Shown one piece after another: positions 3,691 through 55,576 of a stretch of 64,000 bases of DNA. Numbering within the stretch: the first letter of the stretch is position 1; each line of letters starts with the position of its first letter. The DNA is from Ptychodera flava (taxonomy: Eukaryota > Hemichordata > Enteropneusta > Ptychoderidae). Location of the stretch: the NCBI RefSeq assembly GCF_041260155.1, contig NC_091930.1, positions 42,475,096-42,539,095 of the forward strand. Reading direction: 5' to 3'. The position numbers and the translations under genes are program-made. A model generated the notes under the pieces. The model had not been told where the DNA came from, searched no databases, and was given only the letters and a program-made list of their open reading frames with translations.

Positions 3691-3699
3691 TAATATCTT

Positions 3700-5015
3700 G
3701 CTCTGTTTATCTGATTCTTGTCGCTTTTGTGCATTGTGCTTTATCAACCTGCGATTGCTTCAAAGGTACAGGCGACATTACACGCATGGCCACGTTACCA
3801 GAACCTTTGTTCTCAGATTTTTTCCCAAGAGGAATAACCTTTGAAAATACCATTTGAGGTCGCGATGCCACTGCTCTCGAACAGGTAGACTTATACAAGA
3901 CTGTTCAAGGTCCCATCGCCTAAATCGGTCTGGGGAATGTTCACCGCGAGTTCGATGAATAAACATGTGGTATGCCACAAACTAAACTGTGACTTTTCCG
4001 CCTTCCCTTTGGAATATAACTCTGCCACACCTACCCGCTTTTGACAGGGATCTTCCAAAGTTGATAGATGCAAGCAAGTGCAGTATCAATAGTTTGTTCA
4101 TCCTTTTCTCGTTCCTAAATCAACACTTCATGAGACACTGATAAATGCAATGAAAGAGAAAAATCAAAGGAAGTAAAGAAAAGAATAAAAGAGAAAAAAC
4201 ACGAAATACCAGAAACACACTTATGTTGTTCTAAATGTATCAGCAGTGGTGACGTGAAAGTTGAATTAACGATGCGACTCAGGTTCAAAGGTCCATTTAG
4301 CATTTTTTTTATTTCAAATTTCGAACCACTGACATGTGGCCTTTCTTTGAGGGAAAAGTGTTGGGTCACATCGTACCGAGAAATTCTTGAAATATTACTA
4401 AAAGGGCAAACTATCAGCTACACCGCGTGCCGTTATTTCCCTTTTGTCTTAACGGTCGCGAATTACCGACCACGATATCTTTGATAAACACGCAGAGATT
4501 ATGTATAGGCTTGGCGGTAGAGGTGCGCATGCTCTATCTTCAACGTTATGTTAAGCGTTCTGAACTTCCCAGGTATCGGTACAGCAAACATGTCCAGCAG
4601 ACCAAAGCCGGCGCTCGCGCTCAGTACCGTCGAAAAAGCAAGCGAGGTCCACAAAAGCGAACCTAAAAAAGACGGCAATGTGCGAAAAGGTCGATTTTAA
4701 TGTAAAACAGTCCGACTTTTGCTCATACTGCACTGCAATAAAGATCAAGAACGTAGTGAATAGTCAGATTTGGCCGAGGGACGCAGTCGTTAACGGAGAC
4801 GTGCTCAGTTCAACAACAACGGAAGTATTTGACACGCTGCTTTTCGAACATATTAGGCTACTCTGGTATTGCGCAAGTCGAGTGACTCCACTGTAGACTA
4901 GTCGATACTCTGTCTCGGAACACGCTGTCGATGACACCCTGCACTGTTCTATGCTACGGCGTGATTAAATTGCAGTGAAAAATTTGAGAACTGAATTTGA
5001 ATACTCTTAGTTTTG
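3700..5015. other. No recognisable gene
   Basis: There are only short frames. One 36-codon frame at about 4589-4700 begins with a plausible ATG, but it has no relative I recognise and no convincing splice site. Confidence 0.5.
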
Positions 5016-10684: not shown

Positions 10685-10784
10685 NNNNNNNNNNNNNNNN
10701 NNNNNNNNNNNNNNNNNNNNNNNNNNNNNNNNNNNNNNNNNNNNNNNNNNNNNNNNNNNNNNNNNNNNNNNNNNNNNNNNNNNN
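10685..10784. other. Assembly gap of 100 N
   Basis: There are exactly 100 N, a conventional scaffold-gap length, so the true size is unknown. The hairpin on its left is a likely reason why the sequence could not be joined. Confidence 0.97.
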
Positions 10785-12515: not shown

Positions 12516-13252
12516 CTACATTGCCGTCAGCATAAACAAATAACAAACCAAAAAAAACCCAAACAACTTGAAAACATTCGTGGTCACTTAACTACGTCAC
12601 TATGTTAGCGTTTATTTGCAGAACTACACAGAGTCCGGCAGATAAAAGAGATACATAATCATGACGCTCAGTACGACACGATCAGCAGACAGCGACAGAA
12701 GCGCAAATAAGCAGTCTACATCGCAGAAACTCGAATTTTCCTAGCATCATGATTTGAATCATTCTTGCAGACTTGAGCACGCAGGGATACCAACTGAGCG
12801 TCGTAACAGTGTACATTTTGTAAGCTCATATTTTGGCGGGTAAATACTCTGTGTGAAGATTGACATCTCCTCTCCAAGGAGCAAACCCCGAAAATTATCC
12901 AAAACTTGGACGACTAAGGAGTGGTCCGACGTCAAACAGACCTGATAAATAAGGGTAGCGTTTAGATAAATCAATCAAAAATATAATAAAATCGGAAAAA
13001 ATAAATGTTATTGGTCCTGCTGTCTTCAATATTCAGAGTGCTGCGCATGTACGGTAGGTTTTGCTGCACATGAAGACCGTAGCTGTTAAAGGGCTTCGAG
13101 AAGTCCACACTGAGGGCGTTGTCATCACTGAGAAGTCGACAGCCGGTGAATCGAAGTTGGACGACTATAACAGCATTAATGAGGAAAAGTATTATAATTT
13201 AATAAATATGAATCGAATGATTGTGTATCAACTTTAAGTCACAGGTAGGTTA
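12091..13252 (+). repeat. Segmental duplication, copy A
   Basis: About 1.16 kb match 15041-16204 with small indels and a low level of substitution (I estimate mid-90s percent by eye). The copy carries the 3' part of the CR1-like LINE plus ~750 bp of unrelated DNA. Similarity resumes at 13474-13504 (GGATTTAACCATT...TTTTTT) against 16205-16240. Copy A therefore has ~220 bp that copy B lacks. Confidence 0.9.
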
Positions 13253-13504
13253 CCCTTCAATTTGTCAAGTTCACCTATTAATCTTAATGGCTAAAAGTAT
13301 ACATTTTTGGGTTCGTCAGAGTTCGCCAAGGTGCCGAGCTACTGGCCAAAAGTATTCACCGTGAGCACGCCCATTATATTCGCATTTTGCGAGTATGGGA
13401 AGTGTTAGGATGAACATCAAATATTGCAAACAGATTTGAAAACCTGCTCCAACTGGTTTCGCTTTTATTGGATTTAACCATTTTATTTTTGTTGGTTTTT
13501 TTTT

Positions 13505-15040
13505 AGTCCCCACGGACACAGTCCGGGGGGACTTATAGGTTTGGTCATGTCCGTCCGTCCGTCCGTTCACGCAGATATCTCAGACATGCCGTGGTCAATT
13601 TCTTTCAAACTTTGCACAAGGATAGTACCCTACCCCATACAGATGCAGGTCGATTTGCTTCAGAATGTGATCAAATTTGGCTGTGTTAGAGGACTTTTTA
13701 GTTTTCACCGCCATAGACTCCCATGTATAAGGCAGCTGTCCATAGACTCCCATGTATAAGGCAGTCCATAGACTCCCATGTATAAGGCAGTCCATAGACT
13801 CCCATGTATAAGGCCAAGAAAAATAAAAATTTAGTTTCTCATCGTATTCATATTGCAAAAAGGATGCAGTGACACAGTTTTTAGTCCCCATGGATGAAGT
13901 CCAGGGGGCTTATAGATTGGGTCATGTCTGTCCGTGAGTCCATCTGTGAGTCCATCCGTGAGTCCATCCGTTCACGCAGATATCTCAGATATTTTGACAA
14001 AATGTCACGTGACCTTGGTGACCTCAAATATATATATTTGTCCATAACTCAGTAACCACAAGTGCAACACCCTTCATATATGGTATGATGGGACAGCTTA
14101 TGACGCCACATATTGTACCTCATTAATTATGCGCATATCTAATTTTGAACAAGCCAATCGAGCTAGAGGTCTGATTTTTGGTATATAGGGATAACTTAGC
14201 AATACAATTTTTTTGACACAGTCACATGACCTCGGTGACCTTTGACCTCAAATATACATATTTGTCCATAACTCAGTAACCACAAGTGGTACACCCTTCA
14301 TATATGGTATGATGGGAGACCTTATGATGCTTCATACTGTACCTCATTAATTATGCGTATATCTATTTCTGAGCACACCCATAGAGCTGGATGTCTGATT
14401 TTTAGTATATAGGGATAACTATAGGATAGAAATTTTTTGACCAAATGTCATGTGACCTCGATGACCTTTGACCTGAAATATACGTTTATGTCGATAAATA
14501 CGTAACCACAAGTGCTATGTCCTTTATATTTAGTAGGGTGGAAGACCTTATGACAACACACGCTTTACCTCATTAATTATGCACACATCTAATTCTGGGC
14601 AAGGGAATAGAGCTAGAGGTCTGATTTTTGGCATATAGGGATTAATTAGCAATACGATTTTTTTTCAAAATGTCATGCGACCTTATGGCCATTTGACCTT
14701 GATTATACATATATATGCATAACTCAGTAACCACAAGTTCTATACCCTCTAATTCTGATAGGATATTAGACCTTAAGATGTCACATCTTGTACCTCATTA
14801 TTATGCGCATATGTATTTCTTGGCTGGCCAATACAGCCAGAGGTCTGATCTTTTTTTCCCGATTTAGAACCATAACTTAGACATGCTCATGTGTTTCAAA
14901 TTGGGAACAACGAGATAGACCTATGTGCCCATATATCTCAACAGATACACTCGTGTGATACTTCTTAATGACCACATTTCCCTGCCCCATCAAGACTAAT
15001 ACTCCTATTACAAGTGGGGGCTATGTCATTGACAATGACT
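13505..15040 (+). mobile_element. Satellite-bearing Helentron-like element (type Y)
   Basis: The element begins after a T run with a hairpin head, AGTCCCCACGGAC / GTCCGGGGGGACT. A (GTCC)n microsatellite and TTCACGCAGATATCTCAGA follow. A second head of the same design starts at 13883. After it come about five monomers of ~220 bp (13990, 14210, 14437, 14660 and a decayed last one). Each holds a CATGTGACCTCGGTGACCTT-like block, CATAACTCAGTAACCACAAG and CCTCATTAATTATGCGCATA. Hairpin, tetranucleotide repeat, tandem monomers and insertion in a T run recall non-autonomous Helentron/'pearl' elements. The family is inference, and there is no protein-coding part. Confidence 0.5.
13711..13815 (+). repeat. 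26-bp minisatellite, four units
   Basis: Four copies of CCATAGACTCCCATGTATAA-GGCAGT start at 13711, 13740, 13766 and 13792. The first is 3 bp longer. The array lies between the two hairpin heads of the type Y element. Confidence 0.9.
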
Positions 15041-16204
15041 TGTTATCGATCTTGTTGTCTGCAATTCATGTTCATTGATATACCTTCTGGTGTGATGGAC
15101 GCTACTTAAGTTCCACTAGTGAAAGACAAAAACGGTGATGTTACTAATTCCAACAATTACCGTCCAATTGCAATAACTACTTCCATCTCCAAACAGTACG
15201 AAATAATTATCTTAGAAAGATGTAAGCAATTTCTCAGCACCAGTGATCGCCAGTTTCGAACCGCTCAACTGCTGATGTGTGTATTTTTATTCTGAAGAGG
15301 TCATTGATTTTTACAATCGACATAACAGTACTGTAGTTATGCTTTTTTGATGCGACAAATGCATTTGACAGGATTAACCATCGGACCTTGTTCCTTAAAT
15401 TGACTGAAATCGTGTTGTACATTCTGAGATGGTTGTCGAAATAAAGGTTATTATATAACGCTATTACATCGCCGTCAGCATAAAACACATAAACAAACAA
15501 AAAACAAACAACTTGAAAACATTCGCGGTCACTTAACTACGTCACTATATTAGCGTTTATATGCAGAACTACACTGAGTCCGGCAGATTAAAGAGATACA
15601 TAATCATGACGCTCAGTAAGACACGATCAGCAGCCAACAGACAGCGACAGAAGCGCAAATCAGTAGTCTACATAGCAGAAACTCGAATTTTCCTAGCATC
15701 ATGATTTGAATCATTCTTGCAGACTTGAGCACGCAGGGATACCAAGTGAACGTCGTAACAGTTTACATTTTGTAAGCTTATATTTTGGCGGGTAAATACT
15801 CTGTATGAAGATTGACATCTTTCAAAGGAGCAAACCCCGACAATTATCCAAAACTTGCACGACTAAGGAGTGGTTCGACGTCAAACAGACCTGATAAATA
15901 AGGGTAGTGTTTAGATAAATTAATAAAAAAATATAATAAAATCGAAAAAAATAAATGTTATTGGTCCTGCTGTCTTCAAATATTCAGAGTGCTGCGCATG
16001 TACGGTAGGTTTTGCTGCACATGAAGACCGTAGCTGTTGAAGGGCTTCGAGAAAGTCCACACTGAGGGCGTTGTTTTCATCACTGAGAAGTCGACAGCCG
16101 GCGAAGTTGGACGACTATAACAGCATTAATGAGGAAAAGTATAATAATTTAATAAATATGATGAATGATTGTGTATCAACTTTAAGTCACAGGTAGGTTA
16201 CTCT
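15041..16204 (+). repeat. Segmental duplication, copy B
   Basis: This is the partner of 12091-13252, and it begins exactly where the type Y element ends. It holds the same LINE reverse-transcriptase fragment with its own small indels. The long open frames here are shadows. Confidence 0.9.
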
Positions 16205-16726
16205 TGGATTTAACCATTGTATTTTTGTTGGGTTTTTTTTCTGATAGTCTTTTGATTCACAAAAGTAACGTGTACGGTAGTTTGTCAGCTACACTGCGCG
16301 GCCTTTTCTTTGTTGCCTTTGAAAATAATATTTTTTTCAGCATTTGTCTCTTTCAGATTTCACCTATAGGCATAAAAAATCGTTAAATATATTCAATATC
16401 GTACAGAAAGGAAATCCTTTCCCCTGTCGTATTCCCCCGCGCCTGGTTCGGCCTGCCTTTCCCTCCGCCTATAAAACATTCCTCATGAAAACCGTGGGAG
16501 GGCGCCTTTTTAGCTCACGTGTGTTATGTCGCAGCGATGTCTGCCTCTCTATCTTTCTGTCTGTCTGTGGTCCCGATATCTCTAAAACGGCTCATCGGAT
16601 CAGAATCAAGTCAGGTACACAGATTCTGTTTGAGAATGGTAAGAACTAACTGATTAGTTTTTGGTGGGTGCGGTTTGCATATTTTAGACTCAATTGCATA
16701 ATTAATGATTTGCTAAACATATTGAT

Positions 16727-18539: not shown

Positions 18540-20060
18540 CAATGCGGGATATATATATATCTGAATTAACTCAATAAAAATTGATGAAACTCGGTATGTA
18601 TATTGAAGATACTATGATTTAATATTACTGAATTTTTACGTCAGCCAATTCCTAACTTGCATATTTAATGAACTTCCCTAATTAAGGTTATATATCTTGA
18701 TTGACTTGACCAAAGACAACGAAACTTGCTATGTATATGGAAAATACTGTGATACAACATTATTGAAAGTCATTAAGCATTTTACGTCATCCAATTCCTA
18801 ACTTGCATATTTAATGAACTTCCCTAATTAAGGTTATATATCTTGATTGACTTGACCAAAGTTGACGAAACTTGCTATGTACATGGAAAATACTGTGATA
18901 TAGCATTGTTGAAAGTCATTAAGCATTTTAACATCAGTCAATTTCTAATTTGCATATTTAATTAACTTTCCTAATTAGTGATATATATCTTGATTACCTC
19001 GACTAAATTTTCTTCTGCCAATGCCTAATTTGCATATCTAATACACTTTCCTAATTAGGGTTATATACCTTGATTGACGTGATCAAAGTTAGCGAAACTT
19101 GCTGTGTACATGGAATATAAGCCTACTGTGATACAACAGTACTTAAGTCATTAAGATTTTTTGCTAAAGCAATTTCCAAATTTACATATTCAATGAACTT
19201 TCCTAATCGGGGATATACCTTGATTAACTTAATCAAAGTTGGTGAAACATGCTATACACATTGATGATACTAGGTTAAAACAATATTGAAAGTCATTTAG
19301 TATATTCACTTCAGCTAATCGCTAATTTGCATAATGAACAAACTTTCCCAACTAGAAAGAGATATATTTGGATTGACAAGATGAAAGTTGAGGAAACTTG
19401 CTATGTATATTCGAGATACACTGATATAACAGTCATGAAAGTTGCTTTAGAAGTTTTTCATAAACTTATCAACAATTAGCATATTTTACGAATTTTCCTT
19501 ATTAGGGACACACATCTGGACTGACATAAAGTTGACAAAACTTGCAATGAATATTAAAGATAATAAGTTAATACTTTATTTGAAGTCATTCAGCAATTTT
19601 TACTGCAGCTAATTATTAATTTGCTATTAACGAACTTTCCTATTTGGGAAATATATCTGGATTTACTTGATCAAAATTGTTGAAACTTGTTCTGTACATT
19701 GAAGAAACTATAATGACCAAAGGTAGGTTTAGAATCTTTTAAAACTTCTTATCACTAATTTTGCATATCCAACGAACTATCCTAATAACAGATATACATC
19801 TGGATTGGCTTTATCAAAGTTGACAAAACGTGCTCTGTACATTGAAGATACTACGATGTAACAATATTGAAGTCATTTAGCACATTAATTTAGCTACTGA
19901 CTAATTTGCGTATTTAACGAACTTTCCTAATAAGGGATGTATATCTGGATTGACTCGACCAATTAGGGATATAAGACTGGAAGGAAACTTGCTATGTACA
20001 TTGATGAGAATATTATGCTGTATAAGTGAAGATGTTTTGAATTTTCATTTCAGCTAATTT

Positions 20061-31186: not shown

Positions 31187-31649
31187 GTATAAAGTGATGG
31201 TAAACATGTGCAATATGCATATTTTTGCAGACGCTACACTTTAAAACTGTGGTTTGTATATCATGTCATTCGAATGTTCCACAAACGGTAATAAATAGCA
31301 CCGAAAGACAAGGAAACTGCTGTTCGAGACAATTTTCAAATCAGTGCTCGTCGCCTTCAGGACCTTGTTCAGAAACCCGCTGGAAAAAGTTGCCTGCACG
31401 TTGGCAGTCATTAGCTCGACTAACCTGTGGGCAAGGTTCAAAGTTGTCGTGTTCCCGTATAACCCTATACATGACAGGACTTTGATAAAACACTGATGTT
31501 AATTCGGCAGAGTCAAGGGTCACTCCGTTCTTACACGCTTTCTTCAGAGGCTACTTGCAGCTCTATTTAGGGCTTCCAATATTGGGGAAAAGGTTTCACT
31601 AACACAGTTCTATATAATGTAAATGGTAACTGACATAGTTGATTTTCTT

Positions 31650-34600
31650 TAGGTAGAACCGTGACGCGCAGATATTCTGACTCTCAAACTTTATAATTTT
31701 ATTGAAGTTTATTGGTGTCAGGTCGGCAGTAAACTGTTATCTTTAGAGGGCAATATTCTACACACCAAGTTTGTAGTTGTTATTTTTTTAATTCTTCATT
31801 CAAAGATCAATATAAATTGATGATTGAACCAAGATCAATAACATAATGTGTGTAATCTTAGTTGTCCAGTGTATCTAACTGGAATTCATGTGCCACTTAA
31901 GGGACAACGGAACTTTGAGTTGTGTGCACTTGCATTACGTTGTAAATTAACAACTTTCATGAAAGCTGTATGACCTGTTACCCGTATTTCTTGTCGGTAG
32001 GAACCAATTATTTCACCGAAAGTCTGTACCAGCAAACACACATACTGGATTACCACATGGTGTCCATTTCCTTCCTAAATAATAAATTGGAATTTTTTCT
32101 CAAAGCACAATGTCAATTTTATGTCAGCTTCCATTGAAATGGAAGAGGACGTTAAGTAATCGAGGAGTCATAACAATAGCCCTTTTCAGTCTTATGGGTG
32201 ATAATGTTGAGGCACACATAACGAAAAATATCCTCCTTCTTGAAATTCAAATTGAAGGCAGGCCATTCAAAATGGAGAGTGGAAATGGCGCGCAACGTTT
32301 ATGCACAGAGTTATTTTCGTTTAGTTCGTGCAGTTTGTAGGTTTTAGGACGGCATTAATTGTATTTTTAGAGAGAATAGCTGAACAAGCTAATTTTGTGG
32401 GTTTTTTTTAATTCGCCTTTCAATGATTTATATGCATTGATGATGAATCAAGAACATTGTGTGAACTTAGTTGTCCAGTGTATCTACCATGGTTTCATGT
32501 GCAACGTAAAGGAAAATGGAACTTTTCAGTCGTGTGCATACATGCATTATGATGTAAATTAACAACTGTCATAAAAGCTCTACGACCTTTAACCCTGATT
32601 ATTGTTGGCAGGAACCTATCCATTTCAACTAAAAGTCTGTACAAGCAAACACATAAAACTGGATTACCACGTCTTGTCCATTTCTTTCCAAACAATAAAT
32701 TGGAGGGGTTTTTTTTCTCAAAGCGAAATGCCAACTATTGTGTTAGCTTCCTTTGAACTTTAAGGGACGTAAAGTAGTCGTGGAGTCACAGCAATAGCCC
32801 TTTTCAGACTTGTGAGTGATAATTTTGATGACAGTATATGCTTACAGGATTGAGTTGAAGGTATAAAAACTTGACCTCTACTGTCGTTCTTCAATCAGTG
32901 ACCGGGGTAACCATGTTCCGATAATTAATCCCTTCCTCGTTTCACATGTCGTGTTTATCAGATAAACCACAGTAACAAAGTAACCCAAAGTGAAACAAAA
33001 CTACTCCCTAGCGGCAAGGCGACCTGCTTGGGAGAATATAACTTGCGAGCGAAAGACAATAAACACGACATGTGAAACGAGGAAGGGAGATCAGATTATG
33101 ATTGTGTTGTATTTATAGCAGTGCCGCACAAAGAATGATACACATATGTCTTTCAGAGAATCTGTTTCATTTGCCAAATCCTCTGGAGAGAATGCCTTTA
33201 CGTGTACGTTTAATAATCACCAATCACCCATCTTTTATCTTTAAGAATCATTTGTTAACCTATGCAAGAAAAAACGACGTTGTATTGCGTCCCGACTCCC
33301 TGGGAGCCAACCTGCTACTGCAGGCCGTCTACTTTACACAGCGATTCTGTACACCGTGACAATGCATGTCGACTAACTTGATTTAGCTGTTGTACTTCAT
33401 CATCTTATTTGACCCTCTGTCAAAGGTAGGGGTTGAAAGCACGCGATTTGTGTGAAACGGCTGTAAAATTGAGGTCACGTCTCTCCTGTTTAGCTTTGAA
33501 TAGGTCCTGTTAATAAAGGGGTGGAAGCGGCTACACTTCTGAATTATGGGCAGGTCAAACCGGGTCACGGGCAACAAACAAGTAATTGACAGTTTAGAAT
33601 ACAGTTTGGCCACTCTTAACCTGCCGACTGAAAGATTATAATGAATGAAGTAAATTCCTAGTTCCGGAGAATATATGCATGTCATCGGGGGTTTTTTGTA
33701 GAAATACAAATACTTGCATATATCTTCGTATAACGTCCGTGCATTTGAAAAAACCTTAGTGCACATATTGCTGACCATTTATCAAATTGACCCCCGAGTT
33801 TAATTTTACATTTATTGCGAAACTTTTGAAAGACACCTTGAGGAAATTTTGATCGAAAGTTGAAGTCTTTCACTTTCGAGGCACATATACCGAAAAGCGT
33901 TCTCTCTCTGGTCCATTTCAATTATGGAGAGTAGAAATGATGTGTAATGTTTATGCACAGAGTTATTTCATCTACTTCATAGTGTATGAAGTTTATAAGT
34001 TTCAGGACGGCAGTAAACTATATTTTTAGAGGGCAATATTTTACACACCAATTTTGTAGTTGTTATTTTTTTCAAATTCTTCGTTCAAAGATCAATATAA
34101 ATTGGTGATTTAATCAAGATCAATAACACAATGTGTGTATTCTTAGTTGTCCAGTGTATCTAACTTGATTTCTAGTGCCAATTAAAGGACAATGGAACTT
34201 TTCAGTCGTGTGCACATGCGTTATATTGTAAATAAACAACTTTCATGAGAGCTATACGCCCTGTAACCCTGATTTATTGTTGACAGGAACCAATTATTTC
34301 ACTGAAAAGTCTGCACCAGCAAACACACATACTGGAATACCACGTGGTGTCCATCTCTTTCCAAACAATAAATTGGAGGGTTTTTTTTTCTCAAAGTGAA
34401 ATGCCAACTATTATATGTTAGCTTCCTTTGAACTTTATTGGGACGTAAAGTAATCGTGGAGTCACAACAATAGCCCTTTTCAGACTGGGAGCCTGCGTCC
34501 TACACTGCAAGCCGTCTACGTTACACGGCAATTCTGTTCCCCGTGACCATGCATGTCGACTTCCTTGTCTTAGCTAGTTTACTTCATCATCGGCTTTGAC

Positions 34601-37600
34601 CCTGTGTCAAGGGCAGGGGGTTGAAAACACGTGGTTTGTTTGAAACGACTGTTGAATTGAGGTCACATCTCACCGGTTCAGCTTTGAATACGTCGTGTTC
34701 ATAAAAGTGGTGGAGTCGGGTACTCTTCTGAATTATGGGCAGGTCAAACCGGGTCAAGGCCACAAACAAGTAATTGCCAGTTTAGAATACAGGTTGGCCA
34801 CTCTTAACCTGCCGACTGAAAGATTATAATGAATGAAGTAAATTACTAGTTCCGGAGAATATATGCATGTCATCGGGTTTTTTTGTGTAGAAATACAAAT
34901 ACTTGCATATATCTTCGTATAACGTCCGTGCATTTGAAAAAACCTTAGTGCACATATTGTTGACCATTTATCAAAGTGACACCCGATTTTAATTTTAGAT
35001 TTAGTACGAAACTTTTGAAAGATACCTTGAGGAAATTTTGATCGAAAGTTGAAGTCTGTCACTTTCGAGGCACATATACCGAAAAGTGTCCTCTCTCTGG
35101 TCCATTTCAATTATGGAGAGTAGAAATGATGTGTAATGTTTATGCACAGAGTTATTTCATCTACTTCATAGTGTATGAAGTTTATAGGTTTCAGGACGGC
35201 AGTACAATATTTACACACCGATTTTGTTGTTGTTATTTTTTTTTAATTCTTCATTCAAAGATCAATATAAATTGGTGATTTAATCAAGATCAATAACATA
35301 ATGTGTGTAATTGCAGTTGTCCAGTGTATCTAACTTGATTTCATGCGCCACTTAAAGGACAATGGAACTTTTCAGTCATGTGCACATGCGTTACGTTGTA
35401 AATTAACAACTTTCATGAAAGCTATACGACCTTTAACACTGATTTATTGTTGGCAAGAACCAATTATTTCACCGAAAAGTGAGTACTAGCAAACACACAT
35501 ACGGGATTACCACGTGGTGTCCATTTCTTTCCAAACAATAAATTGGAGTTTTTCTCAAAGCGAAATGCCAACTATTATGTTAGCTTCCTTTGAACTTTAA
35601 GGGACGTAAAGTAATCGAGGAGTCACAAAAATAACCCTTTTCAGTCTCGTGAGTGACAATCTTGATGGCAGTATATGCTTACAGGATTGAGTTGAAGACA
35701 TTAAAACTTGATCCTTACTTGCGTTTCTCAATCAGTGGCCACGGTAAGGATATTTGATAAAGCACAGTAACACAGTAAGCCAAAGTGAAACAAAAATACC
35801 TCCTAGCGGTAAAGGGACCTGCTTGGGAGAATACAACTTGTGACCGAAGGACAAAAACAGGACATGTGAAACGAGGAGGGAGATATCAGATTATGATTGC
35901 CTTGTATTTATAGCAGTGCAGCACCAAGAATTATACACATAATTATGTCTTTCAGAGAATCTGTTTCATTTGCCAAAGGCGCAGAAGAGAATTTCTTTAC
36001 AAGTACGTGTAAGAATCACCAATCACCCATCCTTTATCTTTAAGAATCATTTGTTTAACTTATGCAAGAAAAAAACCGACGTTCTATTAGCGTCCCGACT
36101 CCCTGTGAACCTGCTTGATAATGCAAGCCGTCTACTTTACACAGCGATTTTGTACACCGTGACCATGCATGTCGACTTCCTTGGTTTAGGTATTGTACTT
36201 CACCATCGCCTTTGACCCTCTGTCAAGGGCAAGGGGTTTAAAATACGTGGTTTGTTTGAAACGACTGTTGAATTGAGGTCACATCTCACGGGTTTACCTT
36301 TGCATACGTCGTGTTGATAAAGGGGGGAGGAGTCAGCTACACTTCTGAATTGAGGGCAAGTCAAACCGGGTCACGGGCAACAAACAAGTAATTGCCAGTT
36401 TAGAATACAGTTTGGCCACTCTTAACCTGCCGACTGAAAGATTATAATGAATGAAGTAAATTACTAGTTCCGAGAATATATGCATGTCATCGGGGGGTTT
36501 TTGTGTAGAAAAACAAATACTTGCATATATCTTCGTATAACGTCCGTGCACTTGAAAAACCTTAGTGTACATATTGCTGACCATTTATCAAAGTGACACC
36601 GATTTTAATTTTTGATTTAGTGCGAAACTTTTGAAAGATACCTTGAGGAAATTTTGATCGAAAGTTGAAGTCTTTCACTTTCGAGGCACATATACCGAAC
36701 AGCGTTCTCTCTCTGGTCCATTTCCAATGGAGAGGAGAAATGATGGTAATGTTTATGCTTAGAGTTATTCATCTACTTCATAGTGTATGACGTTGATAGG
36801 TTTCAGGACAGCAGTAAACTATATTTTTAGAGGGCAATATTCTACACACCAATTTTGTAGTTATTATTATATTTTAAATTCTTCTTTCAAAGATCAATAT
36901 AAATTGATGATTGAATCAAAATCAATAACACAATGTGTGTAATCTTAGTTGTCCAGTGTATCTAACTTGATTTCTAGTGCCATTTAAAGGACGATGGAAC
37001 TTTTCAGTCGTGTGCACATGCGATTATGTTGTAAATAAAGAACTTTCATGTAACCTATACGACCTGTAACCCTGATGTATTGTTGACAGGAACCAATTAT
37101 TTCACTGAAAAGTCTGCACTAGCAAACACACATATTGGAATACCACGTGTGTCCATTTCTTTCCAAACAATAAATTGGAGGTTTTTTCTCAAAGCGAAAT
37201 GCCAACTATTATATGTTAGCTTCCTTTGAACTTTATTGGGACGTAAAGTAATCGTGGAGTCACAACAATAGCCCTTTTCAGACTGGGAGCCTGCGTCCTA
37301 CACTGCAAGCCGTCTACGTTACACGGCAATTCTGTTCACCGTGACCGTGCATGTCGACTTCCTTGTCTTAGCTAGTGTACTTCATCATCGGCTTTGACCC
37401 TGTGCAGGGGGTTGAAAACACGTGGTTTGTTTAAAACGACTGTTGAATTGAGGTCACATCTCACCGGTTCAGCTTTGAATACGTCGTGTTAATAAAAGTG
37501 TTGGAGTCGGGTAGTCTTCTGAATTATGGGCAGGTCAAACCGGGTCAAGGCCACAAACAAGTAATTGCCAGTTTCGAAGACAGGTTGGCCACTCTTAACC

Positions 37601-39430
37601 TGCCAACTGAAAGATTATAATGAATGAAGTAAATTCCTAGTTCCGGAGAATATATGCATGTCATCGGGGTTTTTTTTTGTAGAAATACAAATACTTGCAT
37701 ATATCTTCGTATAACGTCCATGCACTTGAAAAAACCTTAGTGTACATATTGCTGAACATTTATCAAAGTGACCCCCGATTTTAATTTTAGATTTTGTACG
37801 AAACTTTTGAAAGATACCTTGAGGAAATTTTGATCCAAAGTTGAAGTCTTCACTTTCGAGGCACATATACCGAAAAGCGTTCTCTCTCTGGTCCATTTCA
37901 ATTATGGAGAGTAGAAATGATGTGTAATGTTTATGCACAGAGTTATTTCATCTACTTCATAGTGTATGAAGTTTATAAGTTTCTGGACGGCAGTAAACTA
38001 TATTTTTAGAGGGAAATATTTTACACACAAATTTGTAGTTGTTATTTTTTTTCAAATTCTTCATTTATAGATCAATATAAATTGGTGATTTAATCAAGAT
38101 CAATAACATAATGTGTGTAATTGTAGTTGTCCAGTGTATCTAACTTGATTTCATGCGCCACTTAAAGGACAATGGAACTTTTAAGTTGTGCGCACATGCG
38201 TTACGTTGCAAATTAACAACTTTCATGAGAGCTATACGACCTTTAAACACTGATTTATTGTTGGCAAGAAGCAATTATTTCACCGAAAAGTGAGTATTAG
38301 CAAACACACATACGGGATTACCACGTGGTGTCAATTTCTTTCCAATAATAAATTGGAGTTTTTTTCTCAAAGCGAAATGCCAACTATTATGTTAGCTTCC
38401 TTTGAACTTTAATGGACGTAAAGTAATCGAGGAGTCACAAAAATAACCCTTTTCTGTCTCGTGAGTGACAATCTTGATGGCAGTATATGCTTCCAGGATT
38501 GAGTTGGAAACATAAAAACTTGACCCTTACTTTCGTTTTTCAATCAGTGGCCACGGTAAGGATATTTTGATAAAGCACAGTAACACAGTAACCCAAAGTG
38601 AAACAAAAATACCTCCTAGCCGTAAAGGGACCTGCTGGGGAGAATACAACTTGTGACCGAAGGACAAAAACACGACATGTGAAACGAGGAGGGTAGATTA
38701 GATTTTTATTGTGCTGTATTTATGGCAGTGAAGCACAAAGAATTATACACATTATTATGTCTTTCAGAGAATCTGTTTCATTTGCCCAAGTCGCAGAAGA
38801 GAATTTCTTTACAAGTACGTTTAAGAATCACCAATCACCCATCCTGTATCTTCTAAGAATTTTAAGAATTATCTGTTTAACTACGAAAGAAAAAAAAAAC
38901 ATATAGTATTAGCGTCCCGACTATCGAACCTTCGTCCTACACTGCAAGCGGTCTAATTTACACATTGATTCTTTTCACCGTGACCTGCATATCGACTTCC
39001 TTGTTTTAGCTATTATACATCATCATCGCCTTTGTCCTCTGTCAAGGGCAGGGGGTTGAAAGCACGTGATTTGTTTGAAACGGCTGTTAAATTGAGGTCA
39101 CATGTCTCTGGTTTAGCTTTGCATACGTCGTGTTAATAAAAGGGGTGGATGAAGTTGGCTACACTTCTGAATTGCGGGCAGGTCATAGGTCATACCGGGT
39201 CACGGTACACAAACAAGTAAGCTTAATTCCAGTGTAGAACACAGGTTGGCCACTCCTAACCTGCCGACTGAAAGATTATAATGAATGAAGGATAGAAGTA
39301 AATTACTAGTCCCGGAGAATATATGCATGTCAACATTTCTGTGTACAAATACAAATACTAGCGTATATCTTCGTATAACGTCCGTGCACTTGAAAAAACC
39401 TACGTGCACATATTACTGACCATTCGTTTG
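31650..39430 (+). repeat. Higher-order tandem array of alternating ~1.2 and ~1.6 kb units
   Basis: One marker, TTATGCACAGAGTTATT, recurs at 32300, 33951, 35142, 36754 and 37931, giving intervals of about 1651, 1191, 1612, 1177 and then the last unit. The long units hold an extra ~430-bp module (GTGAGTGACAATCTTGATGG through ATCACCAATCACCC) that the short ones skip, joining CTTTTCAGACTGGGAGCCTG directly. Short plus long make a ~2.8-kb dimer present twice (33.9-36.7 and 36.7-39.4 kb). A part-unit opens the array at 31650. Each unit ends with TCTTTCACTTTCGAGGCACATATACC, the right half of TTAA-1, and the array opens with a TTAA-1-like left end (31651-31690). The repeated minus-strand frames are translations of the repeat. 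Confidence 0.88.
32929..33088. repeat. 29-bp inverted repeat within one array unit
   Basis: TCCCTTCCTCGTTTCACATG TCGTGTTTA at 32929-32957 is the exact complement of 33060-33088, with ~100 bp between. The other long units (near 35760 and 38570) keep only the right arm; the left arm is replaced by AAGGATATTTGATAAAGCAC. Confidence 0.88.
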
Positions 39431-39993
39431 TGATAGGGTACCCCATATTACGTATACCTCAACTGTTAAACCGATGCGCGCAACGAATATTGCAAACGAC
39501 TCGTTCTTATTTATTTTGTTCTTGTTTTAGAGGTAAACAACTGTTACGACTGGGTTTTTTTTGTTTTTTTTTGCTTAATTCTTGATTATGATCACCAAAA
39601 TTATGGTGAGAAAAATGTAAAATTGAAGACAAGTCAAGCCTACCTCAATATTCTAAGATTATGTGACTTCCGGTGAAAAAATTCACAAAAGATGATACAT
39701 GCATAGAATATGCTCCACATACAAAGTTAAGAAAATGTTTAAACACAATTGGACTGTTGGCTACAATAAACGGGACCTTTCACAGGCAGACAGTGAATGG
39801 TTGGGAGGGGACTGCAGGTCGACAACCTCACCATAACGCTGATCAGCCACAAGGCCGAATTCCAGCGTTGCAGGCGTGGCAACTTGCACTGGTGCAAAAA
39901 GAAGATGAGAAAAGCAAAAAACAAAAGCTGAGTTCAAGGTAGGAAGGTAGGAAGGGTGGGAAAGGTCGAAGGTCGCGGTCCATAGTGGATGAA
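39431..39993. other. No recognisable gene
   Basis: One 89-codon plus-strand frame (39673-39942) is rich in Gln and Lys but matches nothing I recognise. Confidence 0.45.
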
Positions 39994-41592
39994 TCAACGA
40001 GGTAGCCTCGTCAAATGACCGTCTCACTTATAACCTTGAACTAAGCTCTTATCAATTCTCTTCTGATCTACCACTTTTTAGCTCACACGTAGGCTAATGT
40101 CATAGCGATGTCTGTCTGTCTGTCCGTGTGTGTGTGTGTGTGTATGTGTCTGTGTCTGTCTGTCTATTACACGATAACTCAAAAATGCCTTAACAGATTA
40201 AAGTCAGATTTGGTAAAGAGGTACCATACTCGCAAGAACAGATTAGATTTTGATTAGTGTGGCTTGCATATTAATAAGTTATGACATATCTTTTTTTCAT
40301 ACAATGGTTCCCTATGGAGACAGTAATGACAATTGTACTGAAAAGCATTGGGCAGTGTCAACTTAATTGATAGCTCATTTGCATATTTATGAAGTTTTAT
40401 TAGGCAATAACTCCGAAATAAATGCACCAATGAGGAAATCTGCTGCCGATACCGATCTGACAGATATCTGACTGTGTTGTACAGCATTTAGTAATGTGAA
40501 GTTAATTAAGGGTTCATTTACATATTTAATGAATTTTGTAGTTAGGTATATAACTCTGAAATTACGGCACAAATTCGGTTGAAACCTGCTACAGATACTG
40601 ATCTGATAAAAATCTAATTGTGCTATGACACATTGAGCAGTGTCAAGTTAATTATGGGTTCATTTGCATATTTAACGAACTTTATAATTAGTGATATTAC
40701 TCCAAAATTGCAGCAAAATAGCTCATTTGCATATTTTATGAAGTTTTGTAATTAGTCATGTAACTCCGAAATAACTGCACCAAATTTGATGATATCTGAT
40801 GCAGGTACTGATCCGACTAATATCTAACTGTGGTGTAAGGATTTAGTAGTGTGAAGTTAATTAAGAGTTAATTTACATATTAAATGACTTTGTAATTAGG
40901 TATATAACTCTAAAACTACTCTACCAAGTTTGGTGAAATCTACTACAGATATTGATCGATAAATATCTAATTGTGCTCTGAAACATTGAGCCGTGTCAAG
41001 TTAATTTAGGGTTCATTTGCATATTCAATGAACTTTGTAAATATTAGTGATATTACTCCGAAATTACAGCATTAAATTTGATGAAACGTGCTACATACGT
41101 TGATCTAATAGATATCTAACTGTCCCATGAAGCATTGAGCAGTAAAAAACCTCATTTGCATATTAAATAAAATTTTGTAATTAGTTATTTAACTCTGAGA
41201 GTACTGTGCGAAAGTTGATGAAACCTGCTACATATAGTGATATAAAAGATATCTGATTGTTCTGTGAAGCGTACTGCTGTTGATTGAACCTGTTGTAAAA
41301 CACGTGAGCACATTCAGGTCACATCTGATATAGCTCTTGGTGTAAGAAAAGTTTCTACCGTCTCAGTTTTTCTAATTTTTTCCCCATAGAGTTAACACAA
41401 GGATGGCGGCCATTTTGAATTTCAAATATCGCGAAATCTTAGATAATTTGTCTCACTAGAACCAAATTTTTGAAGGTGACCCCCGATTTTTATTCTTGCT
41501 TTGGTAAGAGAATGGTTGAAAGTTTCATTGAGGATAATTTGAGAAAAGATTTTAAGTCTTTCATTTTCGATGCTTATACTACCTTAAGGTAG
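39994..41592 (+). mobile_element. TTAA-1 MITE copy split by a type X element
   Basis: The left piece (39994-40079) runs from an ACGAGGTAGCCTCG end to TTCTGATCTACCACTTTTT. The right piece (about 41328-41592) resumes at AGCTCTTGGTGTAAGAAAAG and continues through GGATGGCGGCCATTTTGAAT to TTCGATGCTTATACTACCTTAA. The split lies in the T run of the 'CCACTTGTTTGG' segment. Confidence 0.7.
40080..41311 (+). mobile_element. Satellite-bearing element (type X, second copy)
   Basis: The head is AGCTCACACGTAGGCTAATG TCATAGCGATGTCTG, with a (GTCT)n(GT)n repeat, then ACGATAACTCAAAAATGCC. Seven monomers of ~145 bp follow, each with TCATTTGCATATTTAATGAA, TTTTGTAATTAGT, ATAACTCCGAAATTAC and GAAACCTGCTACAGATA. 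The tail AACACGTGAGCAC is the complement of the head GCTCACGTGTT (as in the copy at 16512), so the element has short inverted ends. It inserted after a T run within a TTAA-1 copy. Confidence 0.65.
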
Positions 41593-42210
41593 TGTACCCA
41601 TCAAGGAACGTTTGCTTAGAAGTTTCCTCAACGGTATTTTCAACTATACACTTTACCAAATAGAGAATGAAAACCAGGGTAACCGTACAAAGTTTTCTAC
41701 AAGACAAACAAACTACATAACATTTATTGATATTTGAAATTCACAATGGCCACCATTTCTGTGTTAACTCAATGAGGAAAGGTATATTTTTTCGATTTTG
41801 GTAAAACAAGGAAGTGAAAACTTGCCAACCAATAATCTATACCATAGTCATAAGTTCCATAGTGACAAGCTCGATATGACAAATACAAACAGCACAGTAC
41901 AGATAAAAAACCAACAACAAACAAGTAGCGGTATACACCAAAGTCACATCCTTATAAGAAAAACGTATGACCTCCTCTGGTAAAGACAATGAGCTCCACA
42001 AGAAGTAGACCAGACAAGTATTCGAACAATTTCAGAGACCGAATATGTGCGTCCCCGAGGCTCACTTAACCTTTTCATTGTAAAAATGGGTCGTGTAGTC
42101 TTTGAATTCGCAAGGTAAGAAGACAAATATTTGAACAATTTCAGAGACCGAATATCTGTACATGAAGCTCATCCAACCTTATCATTGTAAAAATGGGCCG
42201 TGTAGACTTC
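41586..42210 (-). mobile_element. TTAA-1 MITE copy, reversed, with internal insertion and tandem end
   Basis: It abuts the previous copy head to tail at CTACCTTAAGGTAG. Read on the minus strand it ends near 42069 with TTAAGTGAGCCTCGGGGACG. The segment GAACAATTTCAGAGACCGAA...AATGGGTCGTGTAG is present twice (42024 and 42133, ~109 bp apart), so the left end has been duplicated. A ~130-bp stretch around 41815-41960 has no counterpart in other copies. Confidence 0.6.
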
Positions 42211-43312: not shown

Positions 43313-43668
43313 ATGTCAGTGGGAATACCAAAAATGATGAAATCTTCAGAACCATCAAAGAACTCTAACGCATTGCCTGGGGTGAACAGAAAGAAGATCG
43401 GAATCATTATAGTTTGTTTATCATGCCTCTGCCTTATTCCCCTTTATTCCACGATGTATTTGAAAGCCAATAATACAGTTGTTGGACCTTTACATAAAGC
43501 CAGAGTAAGTATTCCAACGTCATATTTATTTCATAGATATTTCCACCTTAGGGAGCAATGCTTTAGGGACAGATACTCGGACTCTTTAATAATAACGATA
43601 CTTTGTTTCTCTGCTGATCGATTGGACTCATACTGATAATTGCAGACTAACTTGCGATAGATAGATAA

Positions 43669-43750
<82 letters not shown>

Positions 43751-43907
43751 CGATCGATCGATCGATCGATCGATCGATCGATAGATAGATAGATAGATAG
43801 ATAGAGAGATAGATAGATAGATAGATAGATCGATCGATTGACCGACCGATCGATCGATAGATCGATAGATCGATCGATCGATCGATAGATAGATCGATCG
43901 ATCGATC

Positions 43908-43961
<54 letters not shown>

Positions 43962-46378
43962 GATTGATAGATAGATATACAAAGGAGCCTATGGGATAAG
44001 TTCGCACATGTTTGGCTTCAGTGGGGGGTAGGGGTGCAAAAAATAAACGAAACGTTTTCTCTTCAGTCCCCTTCAATTAACCCTTGAGCGCCAAAGTCAA
44101 TTTTGTCGCCTTTAAAAAAAAACACCCCAGTCATTTTTTTCATATTTTTGCCAAACTTTTGATATAAAACTGTAGCCAATGAAATGTGATGTCCATTTGG
44201 TTCAAAGTTATCAAAATATCACAGAAAATTCATAAAAATTGGTAAAATGCTGCATTAAAATTTTGGTGGGAAAAACACAGCACTCGAAGGGTTAATTGTA
44301 CTCATGCCCTTTGCATTTTGATTGTATATATGCATGCATTTATCTATGCACTTGTATATATTGTAAACAAACAGAATGAAGGCGATAAACATTGATATAT
44401 TGGAAGGAATAATCTTAGTGATAAAATCTTTCATTGTGATTTTGGGGTACTCCATGGCTCTTTCGCAAGCCATTATCCATTTCTTTTTGTTTCGTCCTCT
44501 GACGATTGAGCGAATTCATTTAACAGTTCAGGTAGAATGCGCCTCGGGGACATATATTCGGACTCTTAAACTTTTACAATTCTGTTCTGCTATACCACTT
44601 GTTTGGTTCATTTTAAAGCTCTTGGTGTAAGAAAACATTTAACCGGCTTAGTTTTTCGAAATTTGAATTTTTTGTCCATAGAGTTAACACAGGGATGGCG
44701 GCCATTTTGAATTTTAAATATCGGTAAATCTTGGGATGTTTCTTTCTCTAGTACAAAAATTTGCACGGCGATCCCCGATTTTTATTCTTGATTTTGAAAG
44801 AGAATAGTTGAAAGATTCCTACGGAAAGTTTTGAGCAAAAGCTTAAATCTTTCACTTTCGAGGCGCATACTAGCTTAAGAGTTACATTCACCTTATCTGT
44901 TATTTCTTAATCCATATTTTTCAGAACGGAACAGTCGGCCCATCAATAACCTCTCAATTTCTTGTAAACAATGTCATGGAACTAGGGAACACTTTCTTAA
45001 CAAATATGGTGTCTCCACCTTCCAGTCTATGCAGTGAAAACGAGTTCCCGGAGCAATTCGTCCTCGAGACTGCTAACAGAACGCAAGAAGGAGACAGCGT
45101 CGTCTTAGAAGCTTGTGCACAAAATATATTGACAGTCACGGCTGTTGGCAAGGATGGACAAAATGTAACATGTGAACCATGGGTTGACATATACGGGAGG
45201 ATAGTTGGGCCAGATCTGGCCACGTACCCCAAAGCTAAGCAGTACAATCTATATTTCAACAAAGTGGAAGTTTCCTATATTCAGGGAGGGAATTTTGAAG
45301 TGAGAATCCCGCCACTTGAATCCGGGAAATACCTACTTGAAATTCTCCTCGTCCACAAGGGAGCGTCAAGGGAACTTGTGTACAACACGCTGAAGAGGGT
45401 TCCCTGTCTCGATGAACCGCTAGTGAATACCCCGACATCTATCCTCATGGTTGACACTGGGAAATGTGCAACGTTGCCTAAGAACGCGACCGCTCTTTGC
45501 TTAGAAGGGGATGTCCCTGGTCGATGGGTCACTCTGCCAAGAACCGGGTGCGATGGTATACACTGCGAGGGAAACATCAATGTTCTCGCCAGCTCCAATA
45601 GAGTGTGGGCGCCATACAGCTGCCACTACAAACTGTACAACTCCCAGGAAACGAAGCAGTGTGTTTCGGGAAAGAACATTTTGTTCATCGGGGACTCAAT
45701 CACCGAGGAATTAACCAATGAATTAATGCAGATTTATTACTTCAGGCCAAACAAACCACCTTAATGAAAAGCGGATTGGTCAAAGAAAAAGCATGGGTTG
45801 GAAGACCGACGCACTGGACGAAACCCGCGACCGACGGTGGTCGGATCGGGTTCAGCTTTGTGATGGCGACGCCTCTTGGATGTGGAATCAGCTGTGTGGT
45901 TGGCAAATCAGACAGCAAACTGCAGCAACTTTTGGCGCCGCACGGCAAGATAGACTTGTTAGTCTTGCTGACGGGCTTACACGACGCGTGCCCGAGGAGG
46001 AAGCCCGAGTTCTTCGACGTGTTCGGGGTGTACCAGAGTAAACTAGGTCCGTTTGAAGCCAAGCTGCGCAAGCTCATGGCCAACGACGGCAAGATAATTT
46101 GGATTAATTCGCCGGAAGGGAGCGACAGGTCCCGCTGCGACTACCTGTCTAAGCCACGTTTGACACTAATGAACGGTCTCACCAAGAACTTTCTCAGCAC
46201 CAAGGAAGATATCTCCCTCCTGAATTATTTCGAAATCTCGGGGAGCTGTTACTGCGGTAACATCCACAAAGGAATCCGATTCTACAAGAGTAGTTCCGCC
46301 GTGAAAAGTTACAATGGATTTGTTTCCCGTATGGTCGCGCATATCATTCTGAACATGTACTGCAACAGACGACCTTGA
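43313..46378 (+). CDS. NXPE-like protein (neurexophilin-like and PC-esterase domains), type II membrane
   Basis: There are two coding exons. Exon 1 (43313-43507, 65 codons) starts directly after an in-frame TGA. It has a basic RKK followed by one hydrophobic segment (residues ~29-49), a signal anchor. The donor is AGA|GTAAGT. Exon 2 (44925-46378) follows TTTTTCAG in phase 0. It first encodes a neurexophilin-like region ([15 protein letters not shown] on), with paired cysteines and a [20 protein letters not shown] strand. The PC-esterase part comes next, with the nucleophile motif [12 protein letters not shown] near residue 321, then [13 protein letters not shown]. The total of ~549 residues fits vertebrate NXPE proteins. 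The C-terminal GNIHKG occupies the place where the family's Asp-x-x-His would be expected, without the Asp. At 45761-45762 one base appears to be missing (CCACCTTAATG; an extra T restores PPLMKSGL). PC-esterases of this superfamily act on acylated glycans, but the substrate of NXPE proteins is unsettled. The intron carries MITEs and a microsatellite. Confidence 0.85.
43656..43976. repeat. (GATA)n / (GATC)n compound microsatellite in the NXPE intron
   Basis: Over 300 bp consist of GATA units interrupted by four blocks of GATC (for example 43750-43780 and 43830-43900). The GATC blocks are self-complementary. The long Ser-Ile/Tyr-Leu frames over it are translations of the repeat. Confidence 0.97.
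44081..44291. mobile_element. TTAA-2 MITE (copy 1), in the NXPE intron
   Basis: TTAA at 44077-44080 and 44292-44295 encloses ends CCCTTGAGCGCCAAAGTCAA and the right-hand GCACTCGAAGGG, a 12-bp imperfect TIR. The inner blocks CCAGTCATTTTTTTCATA, TGATGTCCATTTGGTTCAAA and AAATTCATAAAAATTGG match the copy at 58841. TTAA targets point to piggyBac or Kolobok relatives. Confidence 0.85.
44528..44878 (+). mobile_element. TTAA-1 MITE copy, in the NXPE intron
   Basis: It starts CAGGTAGAATGCGCCTCGGG, carries GGGATGGCGGCCATTTTGAA and TTTCTTTCTCTAGTACAAAA, and ends CTTTCACTTTCGAGGCGCAT-ACTAGCTTAA. It ends only 46 bp before the exon 2 acceptor. Confidence 0.88.
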
Positions 46379-48001: not shown

Positions 48002-48790
48002 CAATAACAAAGTTAGAATCGAACGTCCCTCAACATGTGGCAGAAAAAAAAATCGCATTTCCCACATTAATTCAAAATTAAATGATTAGGTTTCATATTC
48101 CAATAATTGATGGCCGCAAATGTACCGCACATGCTGCAAATCCAAAAAAAAGTTAGATAGATGTTTGGTTGGCAAAAAAGGACATGATAATCAAGAATAT
48201 CCGATATGCCGGTCGTCATATGGGATATCGATACATTGGTATATATAGGGATTGACCGAAAATGCAGGTGTAAAAATCAAATAGGGAATTAGGTAACTGT
48301 CGGGATACCAATATGTCGATGTACCGATTTTAACCGTTTGGCCGCGAAATGTCGCGGATTCTTTAAGGAAGTTCTGCAAATAGATTTTATGTTGATGTGA
48401 CTATATTGAACTTTTTCAAATGATATGAGATCGGGCGAGGAGGGGGATACAAAAATTGATTGACTAAATTCTGACTTGAGTGTCAATGAATTTCAATTGA
48501 ACTCAGTTAAATCAGTGATGACCGTCATTTTAGTTTCAACCCCCACACAATTGAAATCTATTTCTAACATGTTGAACGATGTCCCCCCCCCCCCCCCCGA
48601 ATCACTTGGCCTGCTCTATTATTGAAAAACAAAGTCCCAATCCTTTACTCGATCAATGGGAGGCTGCATTTCAACAGAAATTCCAACAAGGGTTAGGGAT
48701 ACTTCTTAGGTTGAGACCACTTGTTGCCTCGTTTCTGTATCGCTGTACCGTCGACCCACAATCCATTGCTTCAGACATTGCTCATCTATG
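48002..48790. other. No recognisable gene; poly-C run
   Basis: A run of about 17 C lies at 48582-48598. The rest is AT-rich without coding signs. Confidence 0.5.
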
Positions 48791-48792
48791 CT

Positions 48793-49142
48793 TTAAGGTA
48801 GAGTGCGCCTCGAAAGTGAAAGACTTAAACTTCCGTCAAACTGCGCGCGCAATTAATATTTCAACCATGCTCTTTCAAAATCAAGAATAAAAACTTAGGT
48901 TCACTTTTGGTACTGGAGAAACAAATTACCCAAGATTTACCGATATTTGAAATTCAAAATGGCCGTCATCCCTGTGTTAACTCTATGGCGAATAATAAAA
49001 TCTCCGATTATTGAAACCTAAGACGGTAAAAACTTTTCTTTCACCAAAACTTTAAAATGCGCCCCAACAAGTGGTAGATCAGAAGAGAAATGATAAAATT
49101 TTAAAGCCCGAATTTCTGTCCCCGAGTCGTATTTTACCTAAT
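48793..49142 (-). mobile_element. TTAA-1 MITE copy, reversed
   Basis: It begins (plus strand) TTAAGGTAGAGTGCGCCTCGAAAGTGAAAG and passes through ACCGATATTTGAAATTCAAA and ATGGCCGTCATCCC. It ends TTCTGTCCCCGAG...TTTTACCTAATTTAA. Both ends are present. Confidence 0.87.
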
Positions 49143-54241: not shown

Positions 54242-54602
54242 TTAACGTAGAATGCGCCTCGGAAACGGATATTTGGACGCCCAAACTTTTATTATTCTTT
54301 TCTGATCTACCACTTGTTGGCGTTCATTTTAAAACTCTTGGCGTAAGAAAACTTTTCACCGTCTTAGTTTTTCAAAAATCGAAAAAATTATTTTTTTCTC
54401 CGTAGAGTTAACACAGGGATGGCGGCCATTTTGAATTTCAAATATCGGTAAATCTTGGATAATTTGTTTCTCTAGTACCAAAATTTGCACGGTGACCCCC
54501 GATTTTTATTCATGATTTTGAAAGAGAATGGCTGAAAGATCCTTTAAGGAAAGTTTGAGCAAAAGTTTAAGTCTTTCACTTTCGAGGTGCATACTACCTT
54601 AA
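54242..54602 (+). mobile_element. TTAA-1 MITE, well preserved copy
   Basis: Starts TTAACGTAGAATGCGCCTCG and ends TTTCGAGGTGCATACTACCTTAA, ~360 bp. It carries GGGATGGCGGCCATTTTGAA, TTTCAAATATCGGTAAATCT and CACGGTGACCCCCGATTTTT. The right TTAA is shared with the next copy. Confidence 0.92.
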
Positions 54603-54957
54603 GGTAGAATGCGCGCCTCGGGGACGAATATTTGGACGCTCAAAGTTTTATTATTTTTTTCTGATCTACCACTTGTTTGCCTTTATTTTAAAACTCTTGG
54701 TATAAAAAAACGTTTTCACAGTCTTAGTTTTTCAAAAATTGACAATTAATGGGTTTTTTCTCTCCATAGAGTATAACGCAATGGAAGCGGCCATTTTAAA
54801 TTTCAAATATCGGTAAAGCTTATGTAATTTTTGTCTTTTGTGCCAACATTTGATCCCTATTTTTGTTCTTGACTTTGAAAGAGAATGGTTGCAATATTCC
54901 TAAAGCAAAGTTTTAGCAAAGGTTTAAGTCTTTCACTTTTGAAGCGCATACTACCTA
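54599..54957 (+). mobile_element. TTAA-1 MITE, second copy in tandem
   Basis: Starts TTAAGGTAGAATGCGCGCCTC at the shared TTAA and ends TTTTGAAGCGCATACTACCTAA. It is more diverged in its middle (GGAAGCGGCCATTTTAAATT). The head-to-tail placement implies insertion at the TTAA of an existing copy. Confidence 0.9.
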
Positions 54958-55246
54958 AAAGATGAGCATCATACAGTGATTAGAAATTTCAAACTTCCAT
55001 TCTTGGTACGGGTCATATAATGGTAAATTGGCCTTATGTATTGCTAACTGTGTTATGTTGGACTTGGTCAAAGTTGATATAAATGACGTCACGTACAATA
55101 ACTGTCCATGTATGTCTCTTTATTGTTTCACATGAAAATGCTTCAGTACCATTTAAGTTGGCTAAAGAGTATGCGCATTACGATCGGCTGAACGCCATGC
55201 AGTTCCTTTTATAGACATCGCGTGCAGCCGTAGGCCTACTGTACAG

Positions 55247-55576
55247 TTAAAGGTATAACATGCCCCAGGGACAGATATTCGGACTCTCAAATTTGAGCAT
55301 AACCGGGGAGGGTGTCGTCGGAACTGCGCGTGTGCGACTTTCTTGTTTATAAACAACGTATTTTATGCGTGGTATCTGGTACACCACGTCAACATGGCCG
55401 CAACATTTAAATTGTATGATATTCATTGTCAACAAAATATTTTAACTGTAATCAATCGCCAGCGTACCCTGGGAACAGTGTTTACATCGGTCGTGGAGTC
55501 CCTGGCAACCTTTGAGCAGAGTTCCGACGACACCTTCCCTTTAAATCTTGCACTTATGAGGCGCACACTATGTTAA
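55247..55576 (+). mobile_element. TTAA-1-like MITE with a different core
   Basis: TTAA at 55247-55250 and 55573-55576. The ends AGGTATAACATGCCCCAGGG and ATGAGGCGCACACTATG are TTAA-1-like, and GGACAGATATTCGGACTCTC follows as in other copies. The core (55310-55540) instead matches the dispersed repeat at 3462-3690. Confidence 0.8.

Follow-up and report, generated by a model that had tools for sequence, protein, structure and literature searches.

A small tandem array of alternating long and short units in Ptychodera flava that may derive from a non-autonomous DNA transposon

In alpha-satellite higher-order repeats, different monomers alternate and the multimer that they form is itself repeated. 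A locus on contig NC_091930.1 of the Ptychodera flava assembly GCF_041260155.1 shows an alternation of this kind among units more than a kilobase long, and raises the question of whether it is a higher-order satellite and how its pattern arose. We analyzed a window of 64,000 nucleotides around it (positions 42,475,096 to 42,539,095 of the forward strand; all coordinates below count from the first base of this window). Self-BLAST of the window, together with unit alignment, delimited an array from 31,649 to ~39,424 in the order A1, L1-S1-L2-S2-L3, with repeats far above chance (BLAST matches reach 5,328 bits). An alternation of ~1.2-kb and ~1.6-kb units had been proposed in a sequence-only reading and was borne out by both methods: long units (L) measure ~1.60-1.65 kb, short units (S) 1,189 bp each, and the two LS dimers 2,841 and 2,791 bp. 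The order of modules is A1 / A-M-B-C / A-B-C / A-M-B-C / A-B-C / A-M-B, the last unit being without its final ~145 bp. The units are as follows.

31,700 to 32,214, + strand: A1, partial outer copy of module A, reaching ~22 bp into M (BLAST from 31,703)
32,272 to 33,923, + strand: L1, long unit A-M-B-C, 1,652 bp (self-BLAST, unit alignment)
33,924 to 35,112, + strand: S1, short unit A-B-C, 1,189 bp (self-BLAST, unit alignment)
35,113 to 36,714, + strand: L2, chimeric long unit, 1,602 bp, best single switch at ~36,032 (segmentation, informative sites)
36,715 to 37,903, + strand: S2, short unit, 1,189 bp, 95.4% identical to S1 (unit alignment)
37,904 to 39,424 (end approximate), + strand: L3, last long unit, 1,521 bp, without module C (self-BLAST, unit alignment)

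A single module, M, of 457-491 bp makes up the difference in length between long and short units. The presence of an extra module in the long unit had been recognized before; the ~430 bp then given was slightly too small. The three copies, bounded by their junctions, are these.

32,811 to 33,301, + strand: M of L1, 491 bp
35,648 to 36,104, + strand: M of L2, 457 bp
38,460 to 38,925, + strand: M of L3, ~466 bp

The outer copy A1 bears on which unit type came first. In BLAST comparisons it is 84-86% identical to module A of S1, L2, S2 and L3 and 77% identical to that of L1, whose module A is the most diverged. The A1 matches with S1 and S2 end at 32,192, whereas those to L1, L2 and L3 extend to 32,210-32,214. 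Because the homology of A1 enters M when compared with long units and stops at the A/M junction when compared with short units, M is probably ancestral and the short unit probably a deletion derivative. The alternative that M is an inserted element is not favored, given that A1 extends into M; inverted ends or a flanking duplication were not seen at M by eye. Separately, M of L1 holds a perfect 30-bp inverted repeat (32,929-32,958 and 33,059-33,088) around a 100-bp loop, and a near copy of its right arm is the sole arm retained in L2 and L3. This could reflect the gain of a templated inverted insertion in L1 or the loss of an arm in L2 and L3.

If the ~2.8-kb dimer were itself repeated, as the sequence-only reading held, units one dimer apart should be more alike than neighbors. 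We computed unit identities in the A and B columns common to long and short types. S1 and S2 are 95.4% identical (964/1010), clearly above every neighboring pair (L1-S1 85.9%, S1-L2 91.8%, L2-S2 90.2%, S2-L3 87.6%), but L2 and L3, at 91.9% (908/988), do no more than tie with S1-L2; L1-L2 and L1-L3 reach 86.9% and 83.2%. Two-state segmentation at the 2.8-kb offset found one 2.3-kb block, 33,555-35,876 against 36,361-38,689, with 4.3% divergence. Outside this block, 979 + 520 compared bases lie at 15-25% divergence and 239 + 185 bases, in five short stretches, at 1-5%. Since most bases outside the block are at 15-25%, about one dimer has recently been repeated, not a series; the dimer repeat is thus real but recurs only about once. 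Trees of module A joined S1 with S2 and L2 with L3, each with 99-100% support. In the M-proximal part of B, S1 + S2 was again supported (99.8/100) and there was no L2 + L3 clade, and S1 + S2 was poorly supported in far B (0/17) and in far B plus C (68.5/67).

The identity between units of one type depends on distance from M. In A near M, S1-S2 and L2-L3 reach 97.8% and 97.2%, against 88.9-92.7% for S-L pairs, and in middle A 93.3% and 95.9%, against 83.6-90.3%. In B near M, S1-S2 is at 97.1% and S-L pairs are at 83.0-87.2%, with L2-L3 at just 86.0%. Pairs that include L1 are not higher within type beside M (L1-L2 84.3-89.9%, L1-L3 83.4-87.2%). Away from M, most pairs are alike whatever their type: the six pairs among L1, S1, L2 and S2 are 94.3-96.6% identical in far B and 92.4-96.2% in module C, and in far A S1 is closer to L3 (96.7%) and L2 (95.1%) than to S2 (93.3%). 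Exceptions are far A of L1, at 72-76% to all four others, and far B of L3, at 88-91% to the others. Judged from these alignments, the higher-order look is partly local, because type-specific identity is strongest beside M. Such a pattern fits exchange blocked near the M indel, but only a few units are available, and a recent local conversion, or selection acting on B, would look no different. We offer as a tentative idea, and one that we think rather doubtful, that the 0.46-0.49-kb M indel itself makes the higher-order look, through homogenization of both unit types at a distance and a block beside the heterology, where type-specific sequence would then mainly survive. If so, one indel within an array of transposons could be the starting point of higher-order organization.

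L2 is a chimera, L3-like on the left and L1-like on the right. Among 240 informative sites in the comparison of L1, L2 and L3, the maximum chi-square was 54.3, a value reached in 0 of 1000 permutations, with the switch at 36,032-36,034. To its left, L2 agrees with L3 at 116 sites and with L1 at 31; to its right, the counts are 29 and 64. The switch is not clean: the ratio of L1-like to L2=L3 sites runs 23:103 (35,113-35,856), 8:3 (to 35,976) and 0:9 (to 36,031), then 29:5 (to 36,146), 12:19 (to 36,343) and 23:6 (to 36,630). Between 36,102 and 36,360, L2 differs by ~15-18% from L1, 14-20% from L3 and ~13% from S1.

An unequal crossover between the two L units of an L-S-L array, within M at ~35.88-36.04 kb, would yield L-S-L'-S-L, in which S is present twice and the L between the two S units is a chimera; the switch is seen directly, and the crossover is what we infer from it. 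One such event could account for the second S and for the mixed composition of L2, not for the ~250 bp of L2 B, which are close to no other unit and call for another exchange or the loss of a unit. The unit alignment, the segmentation and the informative sites in L2 support the origin first suggested for this array, unequal exchange among units that had diverged beforehand.

As in alpha-satellite higher-order repeats, different units alternate and a multimer is repeated. Unlike them, the array has five units, its dimer is repeated about once, L1 and L2 are 13% apart in shared columns, and gene-like open reading frames (ORFs) lie nearby. Many successive multimer copies were not found, the series comprising only L1, S1, L2, S2 and L3. 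Of the earlier comparison with higher-order satellites, the alternation stands, and the likeness is otherwise weak, with five units and a stub, a dimer present about once more, a 13% difference between L1 and L2, and type identity strongest beside M. The array is hardly a satellite. It is probably the product of an ordinary kind of event, unequal exchange, that resembles a miniature higher-order satellite: an indel together with a single unequal crossover can be enough to make unit types alternate, and no principle is changed.

What the units were before they multiplied is suggested by their ends, which tie them to a dispersed element that the sequence-only reading had missed. The window contains four full-length copies of a ~360-bp dispersed element and many fragments. 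A profile of 359 positions built from these four copies (inclusion line E 0.001) gave 22 matches in the window at E <=0.05, a total that includes the array start as well as the four training copies and the four C modules. The weakest 4 of the 22, one of them the array start, exceed E 0.001. The relevant features are listed here.

44,528 to 44,880, + strand: full-length dispersed element, relative of the array termini (profile, pairwise tests)
54,243 to 54,962, + strand: two full-length dispersed elements, head to tail on a common TTAA (profile)
48,790 to 49,141, - strand: full-length dispersed element, ends not significant inverted repeats (278/1000 shuffles as good)
31,649 to 31,699, + strand: probable family left terminus, first 51 bases of the array (profile 2-56 of 359, weak match, E 0.0043)
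33,788 to 33,897, + strand: C1, family right terminus in L1 (profile 245-356, E 3.2e-12)
34,976 to 35,086, + strand: C2, family right terminus in S1 (profile 244-356, E 8.3e-15)
36,593 to 36,695, + strand: C3, family right terminus in L2 (profile 244-349, E 6.6e-14)
37,756 to 37,877, + strand: C4, family right terminus in S2 (profile 237-356, E 2.1e-15)

Terminal inverted repeats are significant in three of the four full-length copies (17/20, 19/23 and 12/13 bases; 0, 0 and 1 of 1000 shuffles as good), the exception being the 48.8-kb copy. TTAA or near-TTAA, a candidate target-site duplication, stands at several family ends, by eye, and two further copies (41,329-41,591, + strand, and 41,581-41,823, - strand) lie tail to tail on a common TTAA. 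All four internal units carry the family right end, and none was found after L3. At the array start, in a segment picked because its likeness to the family had been noticed by eye, shuffled sequences reached the pairwise scores against the four copies in 0, 0, 0 and 3 of 300 trials. The left terminus was significant at none of the five starts of units after A1. No right terminus matching any of the four copies was found at 39,400-39,500; one suspected by eye at ~39,450 was not significant against any of them. The ends of the whole array are not mutual inverted repeats (205/300 shuffles as good). At 55,251-55,576 both family ends occur (profile 4-48, E 7.6e-6, and 302-354, E 3.1e-5) around a different interior, so the window seems to contain elements that agree in their ends and differ in what lies between them. 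Part of this copy (55,308-55,554) is 76% identical to 3,462-3,704.

We consider it reasonably probable that the locus is a small, old, apparently non-coding tandem array of a non-autonomous DNA transposon, with the exchange history proposed here. On the sequence evidence, we read each unit as a decayed copy of such a transposon, joined in tandem to the next. A complete long unit, made up of left end, A, M, B and C, would correspond to an element of ~1.65 kb that has both ends in common with the 360-bp dispersed element; we infer that it had family ends and an interior of its own. At least two copies would have come to lie head to tail, internal left ends would have been lost or have decayed, and one unit, to judge from A1, would have lost M by deletion to give the short type. 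After the crossover within M, continued exchange may have evened out both unit types at a distance from M, and sequence next to the M indel seems to have stayed type-specific on account of it. Several results count against the proposal: no significant left terminus at the internal units and no right terminus after L3, array ends that are not mutual inverted repeats, a weak match at the array start, the 48.8-kb copy with its non-significant ends, the ~250 bp of L2 that the crossover leaves unexplained, and the exceptions to homogenization in L1 and L3. A neutral relic is the simplest reading of the array, and the proposal needs no function.

The same layout could possibly, although we think it unlikely, have come from the ordinary duplication in tandem of an intergenic segment that happened to hold a 3' fragment (C) of the dispersed element, the unit then being no transposon. 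Such a duplication would explain why self-BLAST found no further copies of A, M or B elsewhere in the window, why internal left ends are undetectable and why the last unit is without C; the match to the left end at the array start is also weak. That match, however, sits exactly at the array start, and the element at 55,251-55,576 likewise has both family ends around a different interior. A partial assembly artefact, in which S1 and S2, each with its flanking sequence, represent two haplotypes placed one after the other, strikes us as improbable. A divergence of 4.3%, as in the 2.3-kb block, falls within what alleles of very polymorphic marine invertebrates can show, and 100 consecutive N at 10,685-10,784 point to a scaffold. 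Against this, that N run is the only one in the window and falls outside the array, and the three L units differ by 14-17% in M-proximal B, which we take to be too much for alleles; the three L units are therefore probably real.

Origin from a transposon would place the array beside several known cases. The Tetris element of Drosophila virilis (TIR-220) is reported to be a non-autonomous DNA transposon that gives kilobase-size tandem arrays, and a related miniature element (MITE), DAIBAM, resembles it at both ends (PMC4079207). Both features recall the locus described here, namely tandem arrays from a non-autonomous DNA transposon and a related small element similar at both ends. The Tetris repeat, in that account, is a ~220-bp piece inside a long terminal inverted repeat, whereas the array unit here is 1.2-1.65 kb and internal units keep the right end. 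Xstir and miDNA4 of Xenopus, according to a review (PMC12628747), are MITEs with tandem repeats, with loss of inverted ends proposed for miDNA4. They too are MITE-related arrays; Xstir repeats reportedly come from the MITE interior and those of miDNA4 from a captured repeat, whereas our units look element-sized. The same review cites McGurk and Barbash 2018 for transposons that inserted in tandem and then expanded through unequal exchange (PMC12628747), and here as there adjoining transposons would seed the array, with unequal exchange later. By the review's description, our case differs in that internal left ends are undetectable. The kind of array is already known, since tandem arrays seeded by transposons have been described in the literature. 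The present one illustrates, on a small and legible scale, how transposons may give rise to such arrays.

No genes were found in the array. Stop-to-stop ORFs overlapping 30.5-40.2 kb reach at most 131 aa, with 36 of at least 60 aa, and we rejected an array of coding sequences or exons. In a Pfam scan of ten window ORFs, five matched at E 0.01, none of them in the array; the longest array ORF, the only one of the ten lying mainly in the array, had no Pfam match. An array of RNA genes (snRNA, 5S, tRNA) was likewise rejected: the window has no Rfam match at gathering score, the 31-40 kb region has one match at chance level (E 3.5), and ARAGORN found no tRNA. The stretch 32,272-39,424 had no match in a phage collection, and exact-pattern searches of viral contigs with a piece of module B and with the family right end gave 0 matches each, a result of little bearing on an animal genome.

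Elsewhere in the window, Pfam matches to RING/B-box and NHL mark gene-like ORFs at 56.6-58.7 kb, a CUB match also occurs among the ORFs, and an NXPE-like match at 44.9-45.8 kb falls below Pfam's cut-off. A weak reverse transcriptase match at 5,932-6,186 (- strand), also below that cut-off, is perhaps a LINE remnant. A 1.2-kb direct repeat (12,091-13,263 and 15,040-16,211, 93.4% identical) flanks a 224-bp tandem array at 14,010-14,854. Repeats with a period of ~146 bp at 18,554-20,004 and 40,331-41,270 have a common motif around GCATATTTAATGAACTT, by eye, and a GATA microsatellite of 81 copies lies at 43,656-43,977.
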